The position numbers and the translations under genes were made by a program. Shown in pieces: positions 2,561-22,266 of a stretch of DNA of 22,718 nt. The notes below the pieces were generated by a model. That model did no database searches. It saw nothing but the letters and a program-made list of their open reading frames with translations, and was not told where the DNA came from. The DNA is from a virus: positions 1-22,718 of the IMG/VR virus record IMGVR_UViG_3300037232_000032; one strand, given 5' to 3'. The first letter of the stretch is position 1; each line of letters starts with the position of its first letter.

Positions 2561-4288
2561 TTATAGATTGTCTTCCCACCCTATGGCGAGTAATTCACTG
2601 CCTCCACCGTTCCCGGCGTAATAAATATTGGAACCTTCCAAAATCATTTCCACTTGATAACTCGCCACACTGTAGGCATTACAGCAAGGAGGATTAAAAC
2701 TGGATGATGCACCGCCATAAGTACTATTGGGTGCAACTATTAAAGACCCACTGGGTCCAGCATTGACGAGTACCCTAATAGTGCCTGCCGTAGGCGGCAC
2801 GAATCCACTTGTCGCGACCGGAATCCAGGTCGGAGTCGAAATGCTTCCTACCGCCCCGTATATCATCATGGGCAAGTTTAGGTTTGGGGCAAATGTCCCG
2901 GTATTTCCGCTCTGCACCACATATTGAGCGTGCTGACCCCGTTGAATCGTGTAATACAAGGCCGGGCTCGATGATGTCGTATTAGCGGAAAAAGCTATAG
3001 TGCCTGCTCCTGTCCCCGCTACCAGGGTCAGGGTTCCGCTTGAGGGGGGAGCAACAACTCCATAAGCCGAAAGACTCGTTTGGCTGGATATGGTAGCGGT
3101 AGCGACGAAATAAACTCCGCTGCCTGTCGTATAGAGCGCCCCCGCGGTAACGCTCGATGATGCGATGGTAAAGCTGTAGGTGTGGGGAATGGTCTGGACG
3201 GCCCCGATGCGGATAAAATAATTATTGTATCCACCAGGAGCCGTTGGGGTTGTGGAGCTAAGGGACAAGAGGCCGCAAGTGCCCGATGAGCCGTTACAGA
3301 CATATACATAATACCAGGTGCCGGCCACCGGCGAACCCGTATCCAGGCCATTGGCCCCCGTGGTCCCTGCATTGAGGCTTAATGATAAGCCCCCGCCCGC
3401 AAAGGGATTGTTGGCTGCTGTGATGGTCAGTGTGCTGCTTCCTGTAACCGTGATTACAGTATTGTGAAACATCGCCGCAGTCAGAGGGATAAAGGGATAT
3501 TTAGGATTCACCAAAATCCAATCGCCCAGGGTGGCGTTATATTCCAATTCGATCACGGCATTCGCCCCTGGAATGTCACCAGGGATCAGGGCAGCACCCG
3601 CACCCTTCACTATGGTTTTAGCGGTCATGCCGTTGGGCGAAAAGGTTGGGGTGGCAGTAGTGTTCGCTGCCGATGCCCAAACCCAGACCAGCGTCTTATC
3701 CACGAAAGAGGTAATAGCAGGAGTAAAGGTAGCGGTGATGGTATCGCCGGTGCCCCCGCCTGCCGCTGCATTAAAACTCTGTTGCTGAATGGCCTGGGCT
3801 GTGGCGGGTGAAGCCACTGCCCCCGTGGAGTCAATGATATACAAGGTTGTGCCACTGCAATAAAGGGACAGTTGCCCGCTCGCAGGCGTGGGGGGGGCAA
3901 CCGAACCAACCGTAACATAGGAGTTATAGGGGTCAACTTCGTACAGGTCAAAAGTAAACAAGACCGTGCCGTGAGTCTGACCGCTGGGAGGGGGGCCTTC
4001 AATCACGAATTTGGTAGGCTGATTGGCGTAAATGATACAGTTGCCGTCGCTGTCCAGCACTATCGGGAAGGCATTGGCCTGGCTAAACCCGGTGTCCTTA
4101 TAAGTCGCAGACTGAGTGCTGGTCCCCGCCTGGTAGGTCCAGACCAGACCGCCCACTTCGGGCATCCCGGTTGAGGGATCGGTAACATGGAAGAAGGGGA
4201 AAGTAGCTGGCGTGATGGCCTGCGCCTGCAAGGGCAAGAACAACGCCAGGATAAACAGGAGTGTGCTTAGTCTTTTCGCGGGTTTCAT
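2561..4288 (-). CDS. Tail fibre/appendage protein with N-terminal signal peptide
   Basis: The protein has 575 residues. Residues 1-24 look like a classical Sec signal peptide: K-P-A-K-R at the start, a hydrophobic core L-L-F-I-L-A-L-F-L-P-L, and an A-Q-A cleavage site. Residues 26-125 match the N-terminal fibre/spike module known from many phages: a G-G-L-V-W-T-Y-Q-A-G-T-S-T core, A-T-Y-K-D-T-G, P-I-V-L-D-S-D-G-N, and a closing T-F-D-L-Y. The rest is Gly/Ser/Thr-rich beta-type sequence with repeated T-x-T/S-x-x strands and many Asn and Pro residues, as in fibres. An AAGGA site precedes the ATG. A signal peptide is odd for a virion protein, which normally assembles in the cytoplasm. The hydrophobic segment could instead be an anchor, or the protein could be displayed outside the cell. 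The fibre assignment is good; export is only predicted. Confidence 0.75.
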   Translation of the reverse strand: MKPAKRLSTLLFILALFLPLQAQAITPATFPFFHVTDPSTGMPEVGGLVWTYQAGTSTQSATYKDTGFSQANAFPIVLDSDGNCIIYANQPTKFVIEGPPPSGQTHGTVLFTFDLYEVDPYNSYVTVGSVAPPTPASGQLSLYCSGTTLYIIDSTGAVASPATAQAIQQQSFNAAAGGGTGDTITATFTPAITSFVDKTLVWVWASAANTTATPTFSPNGMTAKTIVKGAGAALIPGDIPGANAVIELEYNATLGDWILVNPKYPFIPLTAAMFHNTVITVTGSSTLTITAANNPFAGGGLSLSLNAGTTGANGLDTGSPVAGTWYYVYVCNGSSGTCGLLSLSSTTPTAPGGYNNYFIRIGAVQTIPHTYSFTIASSSVTAGALYTTGSGVYFVATATISSQTSLSAYGVVAPPSSGTLTLVAGTGAGTIAFSANTTSSSPALYYTIQRGQHAQYVVQSGNTGTFAPNLNLPMMIYGAVGSISTPTWIPVATSGFVPPTAGTIRVLVNAGPSGSLIVAPNSTYGGASSSFNPPCCNAYSVASYQVEMILEGSNIYYAGNGGGSELLAIGWEDNL

Positions 4289-4306
4289 AGCTTAATTCCT
4301 TGATTA

Positions 4307-5143
4307 TTAGAAGGGGTTCTGCAATCCACCACCTATGTTATAGCCGCCACCTCCCCCACCACCACCACCACCAAACATAGACCCGAGCATACCCATCCCG
4401 GAACCCAAGAGGCTCATACCCCCCCCACCACCACCACCACCCCCGGTCATGGGTGCAGCCAATAATGACCCAGCCAACCCGATCATACTCCCAAGCCCCT
4501 GGCCCTGCATCTGCTGATTCTGCAAATTCAACCCCGCCATGGTGTTCATGGCACCCTGGGATTGCTGTCCAATTCCCAAGTCGATAGGAACCTGTTGGGA
4601 TGCTGTGTTCTGGTTCCATTGCCCCAACTGCGTCCCGGCGTTTTGACCCATAGTCCCCAGGCCGCTTAACTGCTGCATCAGGGTATTGTAATACTGGTTC
4701 CCGTAATTCTGGCCGTACTGCACATCGGCCTGTCTCTGGGGACCGGAACCATACATTCCTGCCGCATTGGTGGAAGCATTTAGGGCGTTAAGCCCCTGCT
4801 GTTGGCCCCACTGATACCCAGGGACGTTGTTAAGATACTGCTGAGGATTATAGGTCTGCGAAGCCCCAGGTATCCCCAGCAACCCCGCATAGGCTTGCAT
4901 CCCGCTTGTGCCGGCCTGGTAGTATGGGTTCATGTATCCGGTAGCGGTGTTCAGCCCCTGAGTTAAGTCTTGCTTTGCTTGATCGGCGTAATGAATATAC
5001 TGCGTCAAGCCTTGCGAAACATCGGATTGGGCACCGCTGGTATTGGTTCCAAAGATGTCCCAGGCGAAGTGCCTCTGCGGTATCAGAGAGAGATATGCGG
5101 CCTCCCGCGGGCTGTCGTCATAGTCCATTTCAAATCTGTTCAT
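4307..5143 (-). CDS. Gln/Gly-rich DNA-transfer (pilot)-type virion protein, P22 gp7 position
   Basis: This 278-residue protein is rich in Gln, Asn, Gly, Tyr and Met. Residues 40-165 follow a pattern I associate with phage pilot or DNA-transfer proteins: a Y-M-N-P-Y-Y-Q-A-G segment, G-L-L-G-I-P-G, P-G-Y-Q-W-G-Q-Q-Q-G-L-N-A-L-N and a Y-G-Q-N-Y-G-N-Q-Y-Y-N repeat. The C-terminal third has two runs of 9-10 glycines around hydrophobic Met/Leu stretches (S-M-I-G-L-A-G-S-L-L-A-A), which may insert in membranes. It overlaps the upstream gene by 4 nt (ATGA). The poly-Gly runs are coded by CCA/CCC-rich tracts that are prone to in-frame slippage. Position and composition suggest an injected protein; the family call is moderate. 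Confidence 0.65.
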   Translation of the reverse strand: MNRFEMDYDDSPREAAYLSLIPQRHFAWDIFGTNTSGAQSDVSQGLTQYIHYADQAKQDLTQGLNTATGYMNPYYQAGTSGMQAYAGLLGIPGASQTYNPQQYLNNVPGYQWGQQQGLNALNASTNAAGMYGSGPQRQADVQYGQNYGNQYYNTLMQQLSGLGTMGQNAGTQLGQWNQNTASQQVPIDLGIGQQSQGAMNTMAGLNLQNQQMQGQGLGSMIGLAGSLLAAPMTGGGGGGGGGMSLLGSGMGMLGSMFGGGGGGGGGGYNIGGGLQNPF

Positions 5144-5583
5144 GCCGGGGCCTCCGCTCGGTAAACTGAGTAATGAAAATTAAGAATGTTCTTTAAAATC
5201 CGTTCCCATCCCCTGCGCCTTGACAGGATTTCCAGTGCCATGGGAAACTCCCCTTGGCACCATGAAACAATGGCTGCCATGATGACCTTCAATTCCTCTA
5301 TCCCCCTGCGACTCTCAGGGAAAAGCCCCCCGAGCCAGATTTGCAGGGTCGGCTTGGCGCTCAATTCATGCCTCACGATTCTGTATATTATGTAGCCTAT
5401 GTTCTGGCCTTCCTGGTAAATGAGGGCCAACCTGGAACGACCCTGAACAAGTTGGAGCATTACATCCTCTGGCTTCCAATCCAGTGTGGCCGGGGGGCGT
5501 GCCTGGATTTCTTTCCATAGCCCTTGCATCAGGGGCCAAAGCGACTCGACGCGCTCAATGGGGACTTCCTTAAAACTCACCAT
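5140..5583 (-). CDS. GNAT-fold-like phage protein of tail cluster
   Basis: I place the start at the ATG at 5583, which overlaps the upstream stop codon (ATGGTGA). An earlier ATG at 5604 lies deeper inside the upstream gene. The 147-residue product has the layout of small phage GNAT-like proteins found beside ejection genes: a helical L-W-P-L-M-Q-G-L-W start, central strands (L-A-L-I-Y-Q-E-G-Q-N-I-G-Y-I-I-Y), L-Q-I-W-L-G-G-L-F, and an A-L-E-I-L-S-R-R-R-G-W-E-R-I-L end. The usual acetyl-CoA loop (Q/R-x-x-G-x-G/A) is not obvious, so it may not be an active acetyltransferase. Its place just before the gp7-like gene recalls P22 gp14, a factor needed for DNA-ejection proteins; that comparison is positional only. 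Confidence 0.6.
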   Translation of the reverse strand: MVSFKEVPIERVESLWPLMQGLWKEIQARPPATLDWKPEDVMLQLVQGRSRLALIYQEGQNIGYIIYRIVRHELSAKPTLQIWLGGLFPESRRGIEELKVIMAAIVSWCQGEFPMALEILSRRRGWERILKNILNFHYSVYRAEAPA

Positions 5584-5867
5584 TTTTGCATCCACGTGGC
5601 CCATTGGCTGTTCAATTTATTATTTACATCCGCGAAAGGTTGGGCCGTGGGGGCCTCGGTAATGCCTATCTTAGTCTGTGCCTGTTGCCAAAAATTACTC
5701 CAAGGGTCCGACATCGCACCGCTTTCCAGATACATGGTCTGCACAAATGGCGGCGCCTGGATGCCATGCTGTGTGCTTTTGGCCCCGATGAAAAGCTGGG
5801 TAGATTGCTGAAGATGTCCGCTGTCTAAAAAAACATCGTCGTTCGGGTTAATTTGCACAGAGACCAT
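5577..5867 (-). CDS. Conserved-context tail protein, unknown function
   Basis: The ATG at 5867 lies 2 nt after the gp10-type stop codon with a GGAAT site at good distance, so I prefer it to starts inside the upstream gene. The product has 96 residues. Residues 1-30 look like beta strands with polar ends (V-S-V-Q-I-N-P-N-D-D-V-F-L-D-S-G-H), and the C-terminal half is Trp- and Gln-rich and probably helical (W-S-N-F-W-Q-Q, W-A-T-W-M-Q-K-W). I do not recognise the family. It is not an obvious trimeric coiled-coil needle like P22 gp26, although it holds that gene's place. Confidence 0.55.
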   Translation of the reverse strand: MVSVQINPNDDVFLDSGHLQQSTQLFIGAKSTQHGIQAPPFVQTMYLESGAMSDPWSNFWQQAQTKIGITEAPTAQPFADVNNKLNSQWATWMQKW

Positions 5868-5869
5868 AT

Positions 5870-7438
5870 TTATTCCAACCATGAACACTCAAGGATGTCT
5901 CTGTTGATCGGATCGGTGATCTCAAGCTCAAAAATCCGGTTGTAGTCCGCCCCATTCTGCCGGAAAATAGTCCTCTTGGTAGTCTCCCCGATCTTCCCCA
6001 TAGAAGCCGTGCGCTGAAACCCGAAATTGCTCCCGCCATCTCGGGATGATCTCAGCATGGCTTGAGGGTTAAGTCCCGTGACCGCATCGCCGGATTCAAA
6101 CAGAAATTGCAAATCCGGGAAGGGAATCAGTTTGCCAGCAATCCGGTATTCCCTGGATTGAACCTTGGCCTGCAAGGGCTGGTTATTATCGGTGTAAACC
6201 TTCGGGTCCATCTTGTAGATATTGCCGCTGGCGAAATCCCCTACTAGGTGATTCCCATTGAAATAGCAGTAACAGTTGGCCCGATGCCGGCTGCCGTCCA
6301 GGAAACTGCTTCGCACATGCCACATGGGAGGATGCACGGAAATGTCACAGACCAAGGTTCGGTTGGCGGTCGGTAAGATCAGCCAATAGAAGCTGTGCCC
6401 TCTCTGAATCTGGAAGAACCCGAGAGCATCGCTAACTGTGGCAAACCCTTCAAGCATCCTGTCGATCTTGTCCGTGGAGATGCGCTTGGGCTGGAATCCC
6501 ACGGCCATCTGCACCTGCCGGTAATTATCCAGCCACATTAGAGTATTGTCCCCGAGAGTGGCGGACATGGGTGCGCCCAAGCCTTTTTCGATCAGGGTGC
6601 CCACCAGTTTGGTGAAGGGAAAGGGTGTGCCGCCTGCGTCGTACCAAACCTCATCGGTCTTATCCCCCATGAGCCAGATGTTTAAATGGCTACTCAGGAT
6701 TGCCAGAATAATGCCGTCGCCTTTGAGGGCCTGGGCCATGGAGTCATAGGTGGTGCAATCCCCCAGTTTGCTTACACCCCATTGATTGCCGTTTGGCTGG
6801 GCATAAACGATGTAGTTATCCTGCAAGACCGCAGGGCCACCACCCAGAAAGTTAGGGTCGGTAATCTGGGTAAAATAGGGTATCCCCGGTATGCAGGCCC
6901 AGGTGACACCACCATCCGTGACCGTATCCCCAACCGTAGTGGGCCAGGCAGGGGGACTCGTGCTGGACATGCCACCATTCCCGGTCACTTGGTAATAAAG
7001 CAGGGTGGGCGGGTTAGGCTGCACCACAACCCCTGGCAGGTAGGTGGTGCTTTGCGTCCAGAACTTCGGAAATGTGTCATAGTAATAGCCGTTGACGCCA
7101 TCACTTATGAAAAGCTGCATTTGGTTCGCCATCGGCACCATGTAAAGCGGGCCGGTCCCTGTGGCGAGGCTGCCGATCAGGATGGCATTGCCATACATGT
7201 CCACCTGATAGACGTTGCAGGTAGTCACCGTATTCTGGCCCACCACATACAAATAATTCCCCATGACCGCCATGCCGCGCACCTGCATGAGGCCGGCGGC
7301 AACAGTGGTCCAGATGGAACAGCCCGGAGCGCCCAACAGGATGGGGCCTTTTTCTTGATCGGACGCAAAAAAGAGATTTTGGGGCAAATTTCCCCTGACT
7401 CGATCTTGCCCTGTTGGGAAAAAAGCGGGAAAGGCCAA
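5870..7438 (-). CDS. P22 gp10-like head-completion / tail hub protein
   Basis: The 522-residue protein resembles the packaged-DNA stabilisation protein gp10 of P22 (472 residues), which forms the hexameric tail hub below the portal and adaptor. It has a repeated beta-propeller-like texture: V-R-G-M-A-V-M-G-N-Y-L-Y-V-V-G near residue 53, L-F-I-S-D-G-V-N-G-Y-Y-Y-D near 108, and N-I-W-L-M-G-D-K-T-D-E-V-W-Y-D-A-G near 252, with A-N-R-T-L-V-C-D and G-N-I-Y-K-M-D-P further on. The start is a TTG; an AGGGGG site lies 8 nt upstream, just after the previous stop codon, and no ATG fits. It follows the gp4-type adaptor after two small genes, as expected for tail-hub assembly. Confidence 0.82.
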   Translation of the reverse strand: MAFPAFFPTGQDRVRGNLPQNLFFASDQEKGPILLGAPGCSIWTTVAAGLMQVRGMAVMGNYLYVVGQNTVTTCNVYQVDMYGNAILIGSLATGTGPLYMVPMANQMQLFISDGVNGYYYDTFPKFWTQSTTYLPGVVVQPNPPTLLYYQVTGNGGMSSTSPPAWPTTVGDTVTDGGVTWACIPGIPYFTQITDPNFLGGGPAVLQDNYIVYAQPNGNQWGVSKLGDCTTYDSMAQALKGDGIILAILSSHLNIWLMGDKTDEVWYDAGGTPFPFTKLVGTLIEKGLGAPMSATLGDNTLMWLDNYRQVQMAVGFQPKRISTDKIDRMLEGFATVSDALGFFQIQRGHSFYWLILPTANRTLVCDISVHPPMWHVRSSFLDGSRHRANCYCYFNGNHLVGDFASGNIYKMDPKVYTDNNQPLQAKVQSREYRIAGKLIPFPDLQFLFESGDAVTGLNPQAMLRSSRDGGSNFGFQRTASMGKIGETTKRTIFRQNGADYNRIFELEITDPINRDILECSWLE

Positions 7439-8699: not shown

Positions 8700-9410
8700 T
8701 TATTGAGTCACCCACTCCGAGGAAATCAGGTCTTTGGGGGAACCGCTTGCAAACCACTTCTGGGGGGCCACCACGATCTTATTGAGCCGGGGGTTCAGAT
8801 ATGCCGCCCACCATGAGAAACTGCTGTTAGCGATGATCTGGTGGCGGCAAGAGGCCATGGCAAGAAGTTCCTCTTGGTCCGTTCTCCCGTTCCCCGAGAC
8901 CAACTCCCCCGGTAAATTGTCCTTGGCCCACTGGGGGTCGTCTGAGAATAGATAGAAGTGGCAGGGGCCAATCCTCCCCTTCACAAATTCTATGCTCTTC
9001 CGGTAATACTCCGCGGGGCATAACCCATGAAACTGATTATGGACGGGATCGGTAACGTAATCCCCCCGCCTGACGTGTATCCCCACGGACATAGTAGTCG
9101 GGTCTATGGTTTCTTTACCATTGGTTTTCAAAGTGAAGTCTTGCCTAATCTGCCTGGCATAATCGGCGAAGTATTTCTCAGATTGAAAATAGCCATTTAG
9201 ATAAACCATGTCTTTCGCAACAGCTCCCATCACTTCATCTTCAGACACGATATTAAAAGCATCCAACTGGTAATGCCTTTTGGTATTCGCAAGGGCCAAG
9301 TCATCCTTAACCAAGACGAGGCCAGTGTTATAGCGCAGGGACATGGCACGGCCAGCCGCATAAATAAACATTTGATTGCCTAATCCCCCACGAAGATTAG
9401 CCACTATCAC
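8700..9410 (-). CDS. GT11 family alpha-1,2-fucosyltransferase-like protein
   Basis: All three GT11 signatures are present: G-G-L-G-N-Q-M-F at 8-15, H-V-R-R-G-D-Y-V at 112-119 (the GDP-fucose-binding Arg region) and N-S-S-F-S-W-W at 195-201. Family enzymes transfer L-fucose from GDP-fucose to galactose-containing acceptors. At 236 residues it is shorter than the roughly 290 usual for bacterial members, but N- and C-terminal motifs are both kept, so it looks complete. It overlaps the upstream glycosyltransferase gene by ATGA, so the two are probably co-translated. The cytoplasmic acceptor could be a virion protein or a host polysaccharide. The family is secure; the donor sugar is inferred. Confidence 0.85.
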   Translation of the reverse strand: MIVANLRGGLGNQMFIYAAGRAMSLRYNTGLVLVKDDLALANTKRHYQLDAFNIVSEDEVMGAVAKDMVYLNGYFQSEKYFADYARQIRQDFTLKTNGKETIDPTTMSVGIHVRRGDYVTDPVHNQFHGLCPAEYYRKSIEFVKGRIGPCHFYLFSDDPQWAKDNLPGELVSGNGRTDQEELLAMASCRHQIIANSSFSWWAAYLNPRLNKIVVAPQKWFASGSPKDLISSEWVTQ

Positions 9411-11287
9411 TGGAATGTCACCCTTAAAATATCGTCTTTGTTTTCAATCTTCGCTTCGCCAAAAGACATAATGTGTTCAGTTAATTCAGACAATGAAAAC
9501 CCCCGCATATCGTCTATCAGAATAGTATGGTCTTTTACCGGATGCTCCCTAATGGCCTTAATCTCATCCCAAATGGGTATGTCCACTTCAGCCCCACAAG
9601 TATCTCCCGCAGAATGGTGAGCATCAAGCCAGAAGATACAGGGCGATGTAATGTTCTTTAATAGTTCCGGCAAGACTTCTGCGCTGTTGCCGTGAAACAA
9701 ATTAATATGTGCGTCGCCTTCGTACTTCTTCTTACACATACTATATAAATCATCTCCTATTTCTATAGAATAGATTCGATCAAAATAGTCTTTTACCCGG
9801 TCTATTGTGTCCCCATGCCAGGTTCCGGTTTCGATGAAGGTGCGATGACCATTTCCAGCCGCATATTCTTTGATAACCGCAGCCTTATCGTCCGGGTGCA
9901 AGATACCATTTTCCAATGTTATTCCATGCTTGGCTGACATATAGGCCAATAATTCATGGGATTTGGCGTTGGCCCCATCTATCATGGAAAGACCATGTTT
10001 GCGGTAATAGAATAAATATTCCTGCACCGCTGCTATCTTAAAGCCTTCCTTTGCGGCCCTCCACCACAGGTCGTAGTCTTCAAATCCACCCCGCATCTTT
10101 TCATCAAAACCACCAGTAACTTCCCAAACCCTCTTTTTGAACAATGCCGAACAGTTGACGCAGTTTCTTTTGAAGAAATCTTTATACTGCACAGTGGCCG
10201 GACAAAGCCAAGTGCCGTTGCTATCTCCGATCATTTGGGTTCCCGCACCTACAATGTCTGCATCCACTTCCATGCAATGGTCGATGTAGTCAGGGTGCAG
10301 CATGTCATCCGCATCCAGACACATGACCCATTCGCCATGTGATTCCCTGATCCCCCGATTGCGGGCAGCCGAGACCCCTTGGTTTTCCTGTTCGATCAGT
10401 GTCACTCCATATTTCCGGGCCACCTCTGAGGTGTTGTCCGTAGAGCCATCGTTGACCACGATAATTTCCACGTTGCCATACGACTGTTTCAAGACACTCT
10501 CAATAGCTTCTCCGATGAAATGCCCGTAGTTGAAGCAGGGGATAACCACGCTGACAAAGGGTTTGCCATTGGGACGGGGCTTTACCCACTCAGAACCCCC
10601 GCGCTGCTGGCAGAGAAACTTGAAATAATTTCCGATATGCGGTTCTATCCCATAATGGGAAATGGTGATGTTAGGTTCGATCCAGAGTTTGACCCCGGCC
10701 CGGCCACATCGGATACAAAAAGAAATATCTTCCCCTTGCATTGTATTGTTTTCGTGAATATGGTTGAAGAACCCATGAACTTTGGAATCACCTTCCCAAT
10801 AATAATTTTCCGGCTCGTGGGCTATGATTTGTTCAAATGCCCTACGGCTGATTTTCATAAAGCCGGTAGGTATAGTATCCGCTTCGATGAGTCCGGTTTT
10901 AGGGTCAACCTTGGGGGTTCTTAATTTATCTTCATTAGTAAAATGCCGGACCCCCCAATTATCCCACATATTGTTACAGGGGTAAGCCGCTCCCACCACG
11001 TCACCGGGGGCCTTTAGGAGATTAGAAAATCCCATGACATCCCAGCCATGATCGGAGTCAATAAAGATAAGATGCTTCGCCTTAGAATTAAGAAAAAGAT
11101 CAGCGAAATGATTGCGCGCATGCCATACGTAGCTGTCGCCCATGAGCGGCCAGAACTCGGCGGCTATTCCTGCCTCCCAGCAAAGGCGAAGGGATACGGC
11201 CAGGGAAGCGGTATGGGGTGCCCACGCCTCCACGTTTCTGAATGGACTACATATGACTAAATCAACTCTTGACAACATGTCAGACAT
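9407..11287 (-). CDS. Three-domain glycosyltransferase / methyltransferase-like fusion protein
   Basis: The 626-residue protein has three parts. Residues 8-225 form a GT-A-like domain with an L-I-F-I-D-S-D-H-G-W metal-site motif (D77, D79) and E186-D187. Residues 243-430 are a family 2 glycosyltransferase: V-S-V-V-I-P-C-F-N-Y, V-V-N-D-G-S-T-D-N, A-A-R-N-R-G-I and the catalytic L-D-A-D-D (D325, D327), then G-G-F-D-E and E-D-Y-D-L-W-W-R. Residues 480-626 resemble a class I SAM-dependent methyltransferase group with F-I-E-T-G-T-W-H-G-D-T, Y-S-I-E-I, G-N-S-A-E-V-L-P and F-W-L-D-A-H-H-S-A-G. I see no clear Shine-Dalgarno site before the ATG, and hairpins lie upstream, so expression may be low. Two 60-base lines at its 3' end are near 40% G+C by hand count, against about 58% for one large-terminase line, which suggests recent transfer. 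Confidence 0.82.
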   Translation of the reverse strand: MSDMLSRVDLVICSPFRNVEAWAPHTASLAVSLRLCWEAGIAAEFWPLMGDSYVWHARNHFADLFLNSKAKHLIFIDSDHGWDVMGFSNLLKAPGDVVGAAYPCNNMWDNWGVRHFTNEDKLRTPKVDPKTGLIEADTIPTGFMKISRRAFEQIIAHEPENYYWEGDSKVHGFFNHIHENNTMQGEDISFCIRCGRAGVKLWIEPNITISHYGIEPHIGNYFKFLCQQRGGSEWVKPRPNGKPFVSVVIPCFNYGHFIGEAIESVLKQSYGNVEIIVVNDGSTDNTSEVARKYGVTLIEQENQGVSAARNRGIRESHGEWVMCLDADDMLHPDYIDHCMEVDADIVGAGTQMIGDSNGTWLCPATVQYKDFFKRNCVNCSALFKKRVWEVTGGFDEKMRGGFEDYDLWWRAAKEGFKIAAVQEYLFYYRKHGLSMIDGANAKSHELLAYMSAKHGITLENGILHPDDKAAVIKEYAAGNGHRTFIETGTWHGDTIDRVKDYFDRIYSIEIGDDLYSMCKKKYEGDAHINLFHGNSAEVLPELLKNITSPCIFWLDAHHSAGDTCGAEVDIPIWDEIKAIREHPVKDHTILIDDMRGFSLSELTEHIMSFGEAKIENKDDILRVTFQ

Positions 11288-16477: not shown

Positions 16478-18586
16478 TTACTGCCTCACTGTCCCCGGCG
16501 GCATTCCCTGACCCGGCATACCGCCCTGTGGCCCACCCTGACCCGGTATCTGACTCGGCTCCTGGCCCTGCCCCATCGCTAACTGCGCCAACTCCTGCAA
16601 GGCTTCGGCCAAGGCTATGCGGGTGTCCGTCTGCAACTTCCCGGCGTTCGCCATATCTTTCATCGCCCCGGCATGGGCTTTCTCCGCCTTCGCTAAACTC
16701 TCCTCCATCTTTACCATCATCAACGGGTTCGGTTTCTGCGGGATACCCAGCAGCGGGAGACGTTGCATAACCTCTTGAATTTCTTCCGGCGGCAGCAGGT
16801 AGCTCTTCCCGGTCCTAATTAGTTCGGCTTTGATCCGGTAGGCCACAGTCTGCGCTTCGGGGATGTCCTGGTTCTTCATCAAAATATCCCCGATCAAACC
16901 CCAAACCTGCGGATTCGCTTGCACCAGAGCGGTGTAGAACACCACCGCCTCCTGCCTGGCTGTGGTGAAGCTCGGGCCGGTATCAACCGCCACTTCATAC
17001 CTGCCAGCTTTCATGTCGTTCATCAGCCGGCCTTCACTCAAGGGTTGCCCGCCCACCTCGTTCCCCGGCACATTGATCTCCACTTCCTTCGTGCTCAGTC
17101 CATCTTCCCCGAGTGTCCTAATCTTGCGCTGAGTATCGTAAATCGTCGGGAACAGATCAAGAATTATTTCCCCCACCCGGCAGAAAGCCAGGTTTAAATT
17201 ATCGGTGTACGTGTAATCCCCTACATCGGACACCTGCTGTCTGGTCCTGAGCGCCACCCCGGAAGTGTCAGCGGCGGGCGCGGCCTGGGGCGGCGTCCCC
17301 AAACTCCCTGTGGTCGTCCTGATTTCCTCCGCGGCCTGGGCCAATCCCGCCACTATCGCTGACGAGGCCTGGGGCGGGGTGATCTGCATGGGCCACTGCA
17401 CAGGTTTGGTGGGGTCTTCGTCGTCTGGGCCATTGACCAGATAATACGGGTCCATCCGGGTGTTTAGGCTGTTCCACTGGCGCTCGTGTCCAGCTATCAT
17501 CTGTGGGGTAACGAACACCTTTGCCTTCGGCGACAGCCCGTAATGCTCTGCCGCCGCAGATGCAAAGTAATTATACATCCGCTGGGAATCCATCGAGTTT
17601 TTGGTGATGCCGCGCTCGTAAGTCTTGCCGTCTACGTTGATCTGTTTCCCGCAGACCGGCACCATGCACCAGTATTTCGATGCCCATAACTGCTTCTGTT
17701 CCAATATCGAAGCCCCATCCACCTTATAGCGGTAAATCTTGTAGCTGTTTACTTCCCGCTGGTGCGGCTTGCCTGTCTCTGGGTCTAGGTCGTAGGGGCT
17801 GACTTCTGCCCCATCTTCTCCGGGTGTCATGGGCAAATCGGATTTTTCGGTAGCCTGTCCATTTTGCAGGAAATAAATGGTCTTCTTCGTAAACTCTTTG
17901 ACAAAATACTCCGCTATAATTACGTCCTCATCGCCCCGCCAGTTGAACTCCCCGTCCACAATGGACAGGTCGGTAGGTTCCGTCTTGTATTGCTCCCGGT
18001 AGGAGTCCTTACTGATCCTCTCGTACACGATGAACCAGTTCCCGTCCATCCGGTCCCAGGCTTGGGCGCTGGGGTCAAAAATAACCGATAGTTCGTTGTA
18101 AACTGGGATGATACTAACCTTCTGCTCACGAGTATCATCCCCGGCATACTCCGTAATCACCCGGATATAGCCCCTGCCGCCCTGCAACTGGTGTTCTGAT
18201 GCCTTTTTCAGGGCCATCCGGGAAGACAGTTCTGCCGTGATCTTCCGTATTTTCCCTTCCTTGATCTGCGCCCACTCCGGTTTAGCCTGCGGATCGGCTG
18301 CCCTCACCTTCAATCCGGGCATATTCATCCGCTGGGCACCTGTCACCTCATCGATAATCGGATTGATGTGGTCTATCACCAGACAGGGGCGGTTGACGCG
18401 GATAGCCTTGTCATCATCCCCCCACTGTTCCAGGTTCAGGAACTTCTTGGCCTCCCGGACATGCGCCCGGTTATGGCTGTCCCCGGTCATACCAGCAGAG
18501 GCCCGCTTACGGATCAGGGCGAGGAGTTTGTCATCCTCAGTCGGGTGCGTATCGTTCTCGGGGTTTTTGATAGCGCGTTTAGGCAT
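16478..18586 (-). CDS. P22-type portal protein
   Basis: The 702-residue protein (P22 gp1: 725) follows the P22 portal plan: a helical N-terminus with E-A-K-K-F-L-N-L-E-Q-W-G-D-D near 45-58, N-R-P-C-L-V-I-D-H-I-N-P-I-I-D-E-V near 65-81, a crown/wing region (Y-I-R-V-I-T-E-Y; Y-N-E-L-S-V-I-F-D-P), V-N-G-P-D-D-E-D-P-T-K-P-V-Q-W-P around 390-405, and a helical barrel (K-A-E-K-A-H-A-G-A-M-K-D-M-A-N-A-G) near the C-terminus. It ends in a Gly/Gln/Pro-rich tail. Portals form dodecamer rings through which DNA enters and leaves. The gene begins inside the end of a zinc-ribbon gene (8-nt overlap). Confidence 0.87.
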   Translation of the reverse strand: MPKRAIKNPENDTHPTEDDKLLALIRKRASAGMTGDSHNRAHVREAKKFLNLEQWGDDDKAIRVNRPCLVIDHINPIIDEVTGAQRMNMPGLKVRAADPQAKPEWAQIKEGKIRKITAELSSRMALKKASEHQLQGGRGYIRVITEYAGDDTREQKVSIIPVYNELSVIFDPSAQAWDRMDGNWFIVYERISKDSYREQYKTEPTDLSIVDGEFNWRGDEDVIIAEYFVKEFTKKTIYFLQNGQATEKSDLPMTPGEDGAEVSPYDLDPETGKPHQREVNSYKIYRYKVDGASILEQKQLWASKYWCMVPVCGKQINVDGKTYERGITKNSMDSQRMYNYFASAAAEHYGLSPKAKVFVTPQMIAGHERQWNSLNTRMDPYYLVNGPDDEDPTKPVQWPMQITPPQASSAIVAGLAQAAEEIRTTTGSLGTPPQAAPAADTSGVALRTRQQVSDVGDYTYTDNLNLAFCRVGEIILDLFPTIYDTQRKIRTLGEDGLSTKEVEINVPGNEVGGQPLSEGRLMNDMKAGRYEVAVDTGPSFTTARQEAVVFYTALVQANPQVWGLIGDILMKNQDIPEAQTVAYRIKAELIRTGKSYLLPPEEIQEVMQRLPLLGIPQKPNPLMMVKMEESLAKAEKAHAGAMKDMANAGKLQTDTRIALAEALQELAQLAMGQGQEPSQIPGQGGPQGGMPGQGMPPGTVRQ

Positions 18587-19112: not shown

Positions 19113-20519
19113 CTATACGCCCATCCACGTGCCCCTGGGGTTCGTGGGGGGCACATATCCTTTAAACTTGCTCCCGCCCCTCATCGCCGGCTTCTGGTAG
19201 AACGTCAGACACACCGCATCCGCCCGGTCCGGGCTGGCCACGCCCCGCTTCCTCATGTCCGGCTTGGACTCTATCTGCATCTTCCCGGAACTGGCAAACC
19301 CATATTTAACCACCGAACTCTGCCCCACCAGCCGGTTGTCCAGGGGCAACTTACCCCTCCTGGCCTGGAGCCAGGACTTGTACCTATCCCACAGGTCAGC
19401 CCGCATGTTCAGATACCTTCCCGAACTCGGGGACTCTGCCACGTTACACCCCACCACGGGATACTTCAACTCCTTCAGCCGGTCATATACCCCAGCCCCT
19501 ATCCCTATCAGGTCCACCACGATGCTGTCTGGCTTCTGCTGGGAAGTCTCGTACTTGTCCACCACCCACCCGACCACCTGCATCGTGTCCAGGCCCCTAA
19601 CGGCTTCTAATGAGTCCACCACGTCACCCTGCCTCCTGGCCAGGGCCGTCTCACAGTCCCCCATCCAGGCCGGGTCCAGGCCCCACACTATCGGACCCTC
19701 GGCTATCACGTCCTCCCGGATGGTGGCAGACTCCAACAGGTCCAGGGCTATCAACTGGTCCGCTTCAGACGACGGAAAATCCCCTAAAACCCGCACCCTG
19801 TAAAAATTGGAGTCCGCTCCGTAGTCCGCTTCCACGTCCTTAGCATAATTCGGATCAGGAAGCGGTGAATCCAGGCAGGACCAGTGCAGCGGCATCCATC
19901 TGCCCCGGTTAGCATGGTGGGAATCATAGAAAAACCCGGATGAGCGGTTGGGGTTCCCTGCCATCAATATCCGTGCCCCGGGGTTAGAGAGCGAACTCCG
20001 TGCCACCTCAAATACTGCCTCGTCCACGCCAGGGGCCTCGTCTATCACGTAGAGGATATGCCGGGCATGGAACCCCTGCAGGGCCTCGGGGTCCGCTTTC
20101 CTGGCCGTCCGTAGCACCCCAAACTGCATCTGTGGGGCGCTCTTGATAAAAATTTTCTCCGCCTGTATCTCCACTTCGGCCTTGATCTCAGGAGGTAATT
20201 GCTCGCGCCATTTGTGCAGCTCCGGCCAGAGAACATCCCGCAACTGACTGGCCGTGGGGGCCGTGCAGGGGATCTTGCAGTCGTATCGAGTCACCAGCCA
20301 CCAGAGGATAACCCAGGCCATTTCCGTGGTCTTGCCGGTGTTGTGGCCCGACCGGATGGACACCTTTGCCCCAGGTTTAGCGATCTCCTGCAGGCCCACT
20401 ATCTGCTGCTCAGTGGGGTCGGCTCGCAGCACTTCCGTCACAAACAGGAGCGGATCATCGAAGCAGGCCCCCAGGATTATTTCCAGGGCCTCGCGTTTCG
20501 TGGCGGGGCCGGCAGTCAT
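19113..20519 (-). CDS. terL: Terminase large subunit
   Basis: The 468-residue packaging motor has the ATPase then nuclease order. The Walker A-like P-loop is S-G-H-N-T-G-K-T-T at 57-65 and the Walker B strand is I-L-Y-V-I-D-E-A-P with D160 and E161. A G-N-P coupling motif (188-190) follows. The RNase H-like nuclease domain starts at V-W-G-L-D-P-A-W (D282), continues with D-S-I-V-V-D-L (D336), and ends with S-P-D-R-A-D-A-V (D431/D434). P22 gp2 has 499 residues. The start codon overlaps the stop of a 24-codon micro-ORF (CTATGA). It cuts concatemeric DNA and drives it through the portal. Confidence 0.9.
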   Translation of the reverse strand: MTAGPATKREALEIILGACFDDPLLFVTEVLRADPTEQQIVGLQEIAKPGAKVSIRSGHNTGKTTEMAWVILWWLVTRYDCKIPCTAPTASQLRDVLWPELHKWREQLPPEIKAEVEIQAEKIFIKSAPQMQFGVLRTARKADPEALQGFHARHILYVIDEAPGVDEAVFEVARSSLSNPGARILMAGNPNRSSGFFYDSHHANRGRWMPLHWSCLDSPLPDPNYAKDVEADYGADSNFYRVRVLGDFPSSEADQLIALDLLESATIREDVIAEGPIVWGLDPAWMGDCETALARRQGDVVDSLEAVRGLDTMQVVGWVVDKYETSQQKPDSIVVDLIGIGAGVYDRLKELKYPVVGCNVAESPSSGRYLNMRADLWDRYKSWLQARRGKLPLDNRLVGQSSVVKYGFASSGKMQIESKPDMRKRGVASPDRADAVCLTFYQKPAMRGGSKFKGYVPPTNPRGTWMGV

Positions 20520-20861: not shown

Positions 20862-21173
20862 TTAGGGCTGCGCCTGCCGTGACAAAATCGCCTGGGCTAT
20901 CGCTGACATGGACTCGCTAAGCTCTCCGCCCACATCCAGTTTGTCCGGGCAAATCTTGGAGAGGATAGCGCACATAACCTTTTCTTTGCCGTCCATCGCC
21001 ATTGCAACCGCTTTTTCCATTAACTCCTTCGATTTACCCTTCAAATAAGAGACCGCGTCCTTATACTCCTGATCTGATCTTCGCCCAGCAGGATTACCAG
21101 ATTTGCCAGGTTGGAAACCATTTTTGCGGTTTGCCGCGGCCTTTTTCTCCGACGTGGTGGCCTTTCGCTGCAT
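20862..21173 (-). CDS. DUF5681-type protein, terminase small subunit candidate
   Basis: Residues 18-32 hold the N-G-F-Q-P-G-K-S-G-N-P-A-G-R-R signature that I know from DUF5681 phage proteins, next to a Lys/Ala-rich N-terminus. Then come helices (A-V-S-Y-L-K-G-K-S-K-E-L-M-E-K-A-V-A-M-A-M-D-G) and a C-terminal helix. At 103 residues, beside the large terminase, it is the best candidate for the DNA-recognition subunit; that role is inferred. I use the ATG at 21173 because AAAGGA lies 8 nt before it; the ATG at 21182 touches that site. The CRISPR-type repeat ends 23 nt before 21182. Confidence 0.72.
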   Translation of the reverse strand: MQRKATTSEKKAAANRKNGFQPGKSGNPAGRRSDQEYKDAVSYLKGKSKELMEKAVAMAMDGKEKVMCAILSKICPDKLDVGGELSESMSAIAQAILSRQAQP

Positions 21174-21205
21174 ATCGCCCATCCTTTATCCATCAAAATT
21201 AACGA

Positions 21206-21234
21206 CGGTTCATCCCCACGCCTGTGGGGAACAC
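21206..21234 (-). CRISPR. Solitary type I-E CRISPR repeat (single repeat unit)
   Basis: On the minus strand the 29 bases read GTGTT, then CCCCAC, loop AGGC, GTGGGG, then ATGAACCG. That is the full layout of a type I-E repeat: 6-bp GC stem and the 8-nt 3' part that becomes the crRNA 5' handle. Against the E. coli I-E repeat as I remember it, 21 of 29 positions match, and one stem pair is changed on both sides (G-C to A-T). It lies in the 67-base gap between two genes, reading in the gene direction. I see no second repeat, leader or cas gene in the window, so it is not an array. Solitary repeats in phages are known to act as RNA anti-CRISPRs. Confidence 0.85.
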
Positions 21235-21249
21235 TAATTCTGCCCATAA

Positions 21250-21453
21250 TCAGCCCTTATGATTGCCTTGCCTGCCCTGTTTGCGTTCATCCTGGGGCAT
21301 CTCAGAGGGTTGGTTTGGGGGATAATGTTCCTCAAACCACCCTTGGGGCTTGAAAACTAGAGGGGCACGATTAGCGAACTCCGTGTCAATCAGAGCGGAC
21401 TGAGTTTGATTTACCAATGAAAATCCCTCGCGGCTGATCCTATTTTTGCCCAT
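21250..21453 (-). CDS. Small phage protein of unknown function upstream of the CRISPR repeat
   Basis: This 67-residue protein has a very strong ribosome site (AGGAGG, about 8 nt before the ATG). It begins basic (G-K-N-R-I-S-R-E-G-F), has a central F-A-N-R-A-P-L-V-F-K-P-Q-G-W-F-E-E-H-Y, and ends in a polar tail rich in Gln, Lys and Arg. I do not recognise the family. Because it lies directly upstream of the solitary repeat, it shares a transcript with it. Neighbours of RNA anti-CRISPRs are sometimes anti-CRISPR proteins, so it is a candidate worth testing, with no sequence evidence yet. Confidence 0.55.
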   Translation of the reverse strand: MGKNRISREGFSLVNQTQSALIDTEFANRAPLVFKPQGWFEEHYPPNQPSEMPQDERKQGRQGNHKG

Positions 21454-21481: not shown

Positions 21482-22018
21482 CTAAAAACCGATTAACGGG
21501 TTCGCCTCAGACTCAATAGCATTTACCAGCCGAATCTTGAAAGCCAAATCATCAAGGTTCTCTGGGCTGCCATTCAAGGGCGTTTCAGGGTCTAAACGAC
21601 CCTCTCGTCCTTTATTCATGCCATTGTTGCATTTTGCCCTGATGCAAGAGGGCATTTTGCCCTGACCATTACCAGAGACTAAATACATAGATTGCAGGTG
21701 TGGATAATTAACCCGATACCACTTCGTTCTGTCCCTTTGATATTCGTTAAAATGGCCTGAGATAATCAATTCGAGTTTTTCAAGGCGGGTAATGGTTCGC
21801 TTGATGGTGTCCACGGCCCAAAATGGGAATTGTTTTTGCCAGTTCTCATAAGTGTTAAAGGTCCAGTGGTGGCCGTCCTTAAAATTCCGTTCGGCCCTGC
21901 GATTTATCTCGGTCCAGTAATGAATTTGTTGAAGGATAATGGCCTCATTAAGGCCAATGCGGACGGCTAGTTCGGGGATAACTACAAGGGGTTGCGAATC
22001 AAGAAGCAGCTTGCTCAT
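21482..22018 (-). CDS. Winged-helix phage replication protein
   Basis: The N-terminal 110 residues match a phage replication/DnaD-like winged-helix pattern that I know from many phages: L-V-V-I-P-E-L-A-V-R-I-G-L-N-E-A-I-I-L-Q-Q-I-H-Y-W, then T-F-N-T-Y-E-N-W-Q-K-Q-F-P-F-W, T-I-K-R-T-I-T-R-L-E-K and R-D-R-T-K-W-Y-R-V-N-Y. The protein (178 residues) probably binds the phage origin or recruits the helicase loader. The part from 115 on is variable, with a 14-base direct repeat (GCATTTTGCCCTGA on the plus strand, near 21629 and 21652). The start codon overlaps the lipoprotein stop codon, with GGAG 3 nt away. Confidence 0.75.
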   Translation of the reverse strand: MSKLLLDSQPLVVIPELAVRIGLNEAIILQQIHYWTEINRRAERNFKDGHHWTFNTYENWQKQFPFWAVDTIKRTITRLEKLELIISGHFNEYQRDRTKWYRVNYPHLQSMYLVSGNGQGKMPSCIRAKCNNGMNKGREGRLDPETPLNGSPENLDDLAFKIRLVNAIESEANPLIGF

Positions 22019-22266
22019 TATCTCCTACCCCTGCCGTGGTATGCGCCGCGATAGGCACCGCCGCGATAAGCGCCGCGATAGCCGCGATATCCGCCGCCGC
22101 CGTAATAACCGCCGCCATAAACCCAGGGCAGGCCGATAACAGGCTCGGGGAGCAGCAGGGGTGCGACAGCGACAGGGGCGTAGATGGGATTGCCGGCGGA
22201 GTCGAAGCCCGCGATACAACCTGCGAGGGCTAGGGGGAGAAGCAGGGGAAGAATCCATTTAATCAT
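22018..22266 (-). CDS. Small glycine/tyrosine-rich lipoprotein
   Basis: I use the ATG at 22266 (AGGAT 6 nt upstream). Residues 1-17 are a lipoprotein signal: M-I-K-W, a hydrophobic L-P-L-L-L-P-L-A-L core and the lipobox A-L-A-G-C, with Cys17 as the predicted lipid-modified residue and Ile at +2. The mature protein (66 residues) has a Pro/Val-rich middle and a C-terminus of Gly, Tyr and Arg repeats (Y-R-G-Y-R-G-A-Y-R-G-G-A-Y-R-G). It therefore should sit in the envelope. It is not a clear o-spanin, since no i-spanin is nearby. Superinfection exclusion is a plausible role for phage lipoproteins, but it is only an inference. Confidence 0.7.
   Translation of the reverse strand: MIKWILPLLLPLALAGCIAGFDSAGNPIYAPVAVAPLLLPEPVIGLPWVYGGGYYGGGGYRGYRGAYRGGAYRGAYHGRGRR

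Follow-up and report, generated by a model that had tools for sequence, protein, structure and literature searches.

The question raised by this locus is what a single CRISPR repeat of type I-E is doing in the packaging operon of an uncultured phage. The stretch analysed, referred to here as the window, is the 22,718-nt IMG/VR record IMGVR_UViG_3300037232_000032, in which no cas genes were found. A preliminary description had reported a complete 29-nt I-E repeat with its stem and 8-nt handle, alone in a 67-base gap and in the direction of transcription, and had proposed it as a candidate RNA anti-CRISPR. The anatomy was confirmed: the complete repeat is present at 21206-21234, the gap spans 21183-21249, and the canonical orientation of the repeat (minus strand, 21234 to 21206) is that of the coding strand of the whole surrounding module (Table 1).

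Table 1. Features at and around the repeat, in window coordinates and in the order of transcription.
Feature	Coordinates	Strand	Remarks
DnaD-like helicase loader	21482..22018	minus	phrog_6493, E=5e-41; upstream end of swapped module
67-aa ORF, no known family	21250..21453	minus	ends 15 nt upstream of repeat
Intergenic gap with repeat	21183..21249	minus	67 bases: 15 nt before repeat, 23 nt after, including leader of next gene
Solitary type I-E CRISPR repeat (candidate Racr)	21206..21234	minus	GTGTTCCCCACAGGCGTGGGGATGAACCG, 29 nt, complete
Parts of the repeat			stem TCCCCAC/GTGGGGA, loop AGGC, 8-nt 5′ handle ATGAACCG
106-aa ORF, putative terminase small subunit	20862..21182	minus	starts 23 nt after repeat; precedes TerL
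TerL, terminase large subunit	19113..20519	minus	phrog_2, E=1e-42; up to 45% identical to phage TerL
Portal protein	16478..18586	minus	phrog_156, E=4e-100; 98% identical to sibling L134

When up to three mismatches were allowed, the repeat was matched once in the 22.7 kb and never in 100 dinucleotide shuffles of the window; a chance origin of the match is excluded. No second, degenerate copy was found on the same strand of the window, even at nine mismatches outside the loop, and the 100-nt flanks resembled the repeat no more than shuffled flanks did; with no degenerate neighbor, the repeat is thus solitary and not the remains of a visible array. No leader was recognized beside it and no array adjoins it. 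It is predicted to form a hairpin with a 7-bp stem and a 4-nt loop, both alone and in its native 141-nt context, which is the geometry of the Escherichia coli I-E repeat. No intrinsic terminator was called at the repeat, and the sole match at the hairpin in an Rfam search was a sub-threshold one to Chlorobi-1, on the opposite strand.

To place the repeat among natural ones, one genome per bacterial or archaeal species was scanned for exact copies. In total, 33 stretches were returned, most of them in real arrays, with three or more exact copies in 15 genomes, mostly at 61-nt spacing (counted by hand); arrays with the identical repeat are present in at least 15 genomes. The carriers of arrays include Desulfobacteraceae, Desulfocapsa, Geobacter, and Syntrophaceae (Desulfobacterota being among the phyla), as well as Nitrospirae, Alcanivorax, Motiliproteus, and Methylococcaceae. 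All 29 bases, loop included, are identical between the phage repeat and the array repeats of Desulfobacterota, Nitrospirae, and Gammaproteobacteria, from which the phage copy differs in lying outside any array and having no recognized leader. A Cas6e gene (PF08798) scored above the Pfam cut-off in 14 of the 24 genomes carrying the repeat, and the identity to real arrays of Cas6e-encoding genomes marks it as a natural I-E repeat. The stem difference from E. coli that had been read as compensatory, from G-C to A-U in the inner stem, is real; however, the A-U variant is standard in many bacterial arrays and thus comes with the repeat type, so it cannot be taken as a sign of compensatory changes in the phage, and no selection at the phage level follows from it.

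A matching I-E system in the host, as had been proposed, is a matter of presumption. Cas6e is encoded in genomes with the same repeat, but no host could be assigned to the phage, and 435 spacers from arrays with the same repeat matched it over 14 nt at best. When 395 genomes of one phylum and 246 of a second were searched with the portal protein, three distant relatives only (28-40%) were returned. Solitary exact copies were also found in three bacterial MAGs, none with a detected Cas6e and at least one in a non-phage setting, so solitude and identity by themselves are no proof of a role in counter-defense. These MAG loci are L035:5844-5872, L044:957-985, L032:3196-3224, and L041:642-670; at L035, which is not phage, the repeat lies upstream of a CarD-like gene, a name given from its sequence and not by search.

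Single repeats that act as RNA anti-CRISPRs are an established kind of phage element, as the preliminary description had stated, and two members of type I-E have been tested. These solitary repeat units are termed Racr and comprise RacrIF1-3, RacrIE1-2, RacrIC1, and RacrVA1-3 (Camara-Wilpert et al., 2023, PMC10651486); in the same work, 2,103 viral examples were catalogued and, in Pseudomonas aeruginosa, an I-E system was inhibited by the two I-E Racrs. In the SRUFinder procedure, a solitary repeat unit has at least 90% identity and at least 90% coverage to a known CRISPR repeat with a bit score of at least 41.1, lies outside predicted genes, and is free of any further repeat, whether full, partial, or degenerate, for 100 bp around (PMC10651486). 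The phage repeat is 100% identical over 29 nt, scores 58.0 bits (blastn-short), lies between co-directional ORFs in a gap judged by ORFs only, and stands alone within this distance, degenerate and partial copies included. A 68-aa ORF (21041-21247) crosses the gap in another frame, but it overlaps the small-terminase gene. The phage repeat is therefore a further member of the known kind of solitary repeat unit, probably a Racr, rather than a new kind. The earlier statement that no report of the element was known may hold for this copy, but the SRUFinder survey included IMG/VR3 (PMC10651486), so the copy may already be catalogued.

The likeness to the published Racrs lies in a single, intact, intergenic repeat with no partner repeat, of a type (I-E) that is among those tested. 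RacrIC1 is co-transcribed 11 nt behind AcrIC5 as a bicistronic unit (PMC10651486), and the phage repeat similarly sits a few nucleotides behind a small ORF in an operon. The candidates tested as Racr had been picked for a promoter within 250 bp (PMC10651486); the phage repeat, known here from sequence alone, departs from them in having no predicted promoter of its own and in its packaging-operon setting. There is also a likeness to the mini-CRISPR arrays that viruses use against their competitors (Medvedeva et al., 2019, PMC6858448): in both, a host-type repeat is carried by a virus with no cas genes, and in another phage contig (L001, below) the window's repeat itself makes up such a mini-array. 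A mini-array has at least two repeats around a spacer, whereas the single repeat here bounds no spacer.

On the minus strand, the gene order is helicase loader, 67-aa ORF, repeat, 106-aa ORF, 70-aa ORF, TerL, portal, scaffold, and major head protein. The 106-aa ORF has a weak DUF5681 match (Pfam PF18932, E=2.5e-4, below its cut-off), and no relatives of it were found in viral contigs or phage records. Neither the 67-aa nor the 70-aa ORF matched a known protein family, Acr families included in the case of the 67-aa ORF; by its likeness in position to AcrIC5 beside RacrIC1, however, the latter is an Acr candidate worth testing. From 21450 to the repeat, the minus strand has no predicted sigma-70-like promoter, and expression of the repeat by operon read-through is plausible.

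One near relative was recovered among viral contigs by its portal protein, IMGVR_UViG_3300037993_000263 (L134; 98% identity), and no I-E repeat was found in its 49.7-kb record. Nucleotide identity between the two is 95-98% over most of the part compared, but breaks off at window position 19157 and resumes at 22019, a stretch replaced in L134 by positions 3191-6646. There, the DnaD-like helicase loader is absent, and L134 has instead a DUF559 nuclease-like protein, a Terminase_2 small subunit, and a GpA-type large terminase, so that the type of terminase is changed. Two short pieces within the replaced stretch are common to both: the C-terminal 33 bp of the 67-aa ORF, which recur at the corresponding place in L134, and the 12-nt TCGTTAATTTTG, which directly follows the repeat in the window and directly precedes the terminase start codon in L134. 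A shared length of 12 nt was attained in 3 of 3000 shuffles, and the motif TCGTTAATTTTG(N0-2)ATGGA had 21 scattered matches in viral contigs, which by our own estimate is about chance for so large a collection. No I-E repeat at up to six mismatches was found in the nearest phage TerL relatives (L129-L133) or in 80 loci with a relative of the helicase loader. Because the helicase-loader/terminase module is replaced in a sibling lacking the repeat, the repeat is accessory and was moved, gained, or lost with the packaging module; because that sibling is also the closest relative, conservation is not demonstrable. Loss from all relatives, named beforehand as an outcome that would speak against the proposal, was thus found in part, in L134. 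Accessory status fits counter-defense cargo and, equally, a neutral passenger, and, should the repeat work as a Racr, the near-identical sibling would offer a natural control.

Exact copies of the repeat occur in three further viral contigs: one has long arrays (L002/L004), and the other two have mini-arrays, of three repeats in L003 and of two in L001. Of the three I-E-type repeats at L003:990-1147, two are exact copies of that in the window, and the third is a variant whose loop is longer. A looser I-E pattern returned at least 80 stretches in viral contigs, from which duplicates and two cases with a nearby truncated repeat, seen by eye, were left out; 16 independent solitary cases were kept, making 17 with the window. 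Eight of the 17 lie in a same-strand gap, shortly after the end of one ORF and shortly before the start of the next, versus 2.9 expected (P=0.004), the expectation being an average over random positions in the same contigs, with simple ORFs rather than gene calls and with distances chosen once. At L094:8118-8144, a solitary I-E repeat is flanked by TerL and an SU10-type portal gene, and in the L054 group one lies just before a head-morphogenesis gene, with a mini-array also nearby. Solitary I-E repeats in viruses thus tend to favor same-strand gaps, some of them in packaging or head operons; as a modest general point, they may often be expressed by read-through.

Taken together with the published systems, these observations argue for a solitary I-E repeat unit that probably acts as an RNA anti-CRISPR, a reading to which we give a probability of roughly 0.6. 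RacrIF1 is cleaved by Cas6 at its stem, after which Cas6 and Cas7, but neither Cas5 nor Cas8, assemble into a complex on the upstream product (PMC10651486). By extension from RacrIF1, RacrIE1, and RacrIE2, Cas6e of the host would bind and cut the repeat RNA and would remain on the upstream cleavage product, where Cas7 subunits may line the RNA further upstream; Cas proteins would thereby be drawn into incomplete complexes, so that host crRNAs would be starved of them by titration, to the presumed benefit of the phage. What is shown directly is an exact, solitary repeat in sense orientation, with an intact hairpin and with identity to real I-E array repeats. The Racr reading is supported by the match of this anatomy (solitary, sense in an operon, array-identical) to published candidates, by the tendency of other solitary viral I-E repeats to lie in the same kind of gap, and, by analogy, by the inhibition of CRISPR that such repeats, two of I-E type among them, exert in tests. 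Against it, the missing promoter prediction is the main departure from the tested Racrs, though the co-transcription of RacrIC1 shows that an operon setting can work; a transcript of the packaging operon may also be made too late to counter a CRISPR attack that comes early, the repeat is absent from the closest relative, and solitary exact copies exist in the MAGs with no detected Cas6e. Of the preliminary proposal, the solitary, sense, array-identical repeat in an operon stands, while its argument from selection is unsupported and the match of phage to host is presumed. As a Racr, the repeat would be one more I-E example, located in a packaging module and with no predicted promoter of its own.

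The MAG copies also speak for the best-surviving alternative, rather unlikely but worth weighing, that the repeat is a passive relic, gained by recombination with a host array or mini-array and carried neutrally in a tolerant intergenic gap. Its position in a module wholly replaced in a sibling with a 98% identical portal is in keeping with this, as are the mini-arrays of the same repeat in other phages, from which the loss of one copy would leave a single repeat. However, there is no trace of a second repeat or of an array, all 29 bases are intact, including the loop, and the repeat lies in sense and between genes, as it does in other phages more often than expected.

The position of the repeat also suggests a cis-acting processing site, at which host Cas6e would cut the polycistronic mRNA just before the small-terminase gene and alter the stability or translation of the packaging-gene mRNA. 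The cut would fall in the leader of the 106-aa gene, as the repeat ends 23 nt before its start codon; such a site would work only in hosts with Cas6e, and the terminase genes of L134 have no repeat, so this is improbable. Slightly less probable still is a DNA-level decoy or entry site for Cas1-Cas2, by which spacer integration would be diverted into phage DNA or insertion into a host array enabled. Spacer integration in type I-E is leader-dependent, and here no leader was recognized and no array adjoins; orientation with transcription would also be unnecessary for such a role. The repeat is nevertheless complete as DNA, and the Racr paper mentions viral sequences that resemble repeats and through which integration into arrays takes place (PMC10651486). 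Least credible is a one-repeat crRNA, in which, after the Cas6e cut, the handle ATGAACCG followed by TCGTTAATTTTG... would direct Cascade against sibling phages without the repeat, an idea based on the 12 nt being preceded by AAG before the L134 terminase start codon, with CCG, the repeat end, replacing this PAM in the window; a match of only 12 nt makes binding, priming, or repression more plausible than cutting. AAG is the classical I-E PAM in E. coli, and such a crRNA would amount to competition between phages by means of a single repeat.

Three observations were made in passing. In phage contig IMGVR_UViG_3300002220_006424, the mini-array L001:2024-2113 on the minus strand, with two I-E repeats around a single 32-nt spacer, is flanked by a probable portal gene and a Cpn10-like (GroES) gene; compared with the Cpn10 gene of the phage itself, the spacer has six differences, all silent (both read DGKQYRLMND), as if it had been taken from the homolog of a competitor. 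In the window, a protein at 2561-4288 has a weak match to the second domain of Mtd (PF21916, E=2e-5), which is a domain found in receptor-binding proteins of the variable kind, and two glycosyltransferase genes (families 11 and 2) lie within the structural region at 8700-11287.
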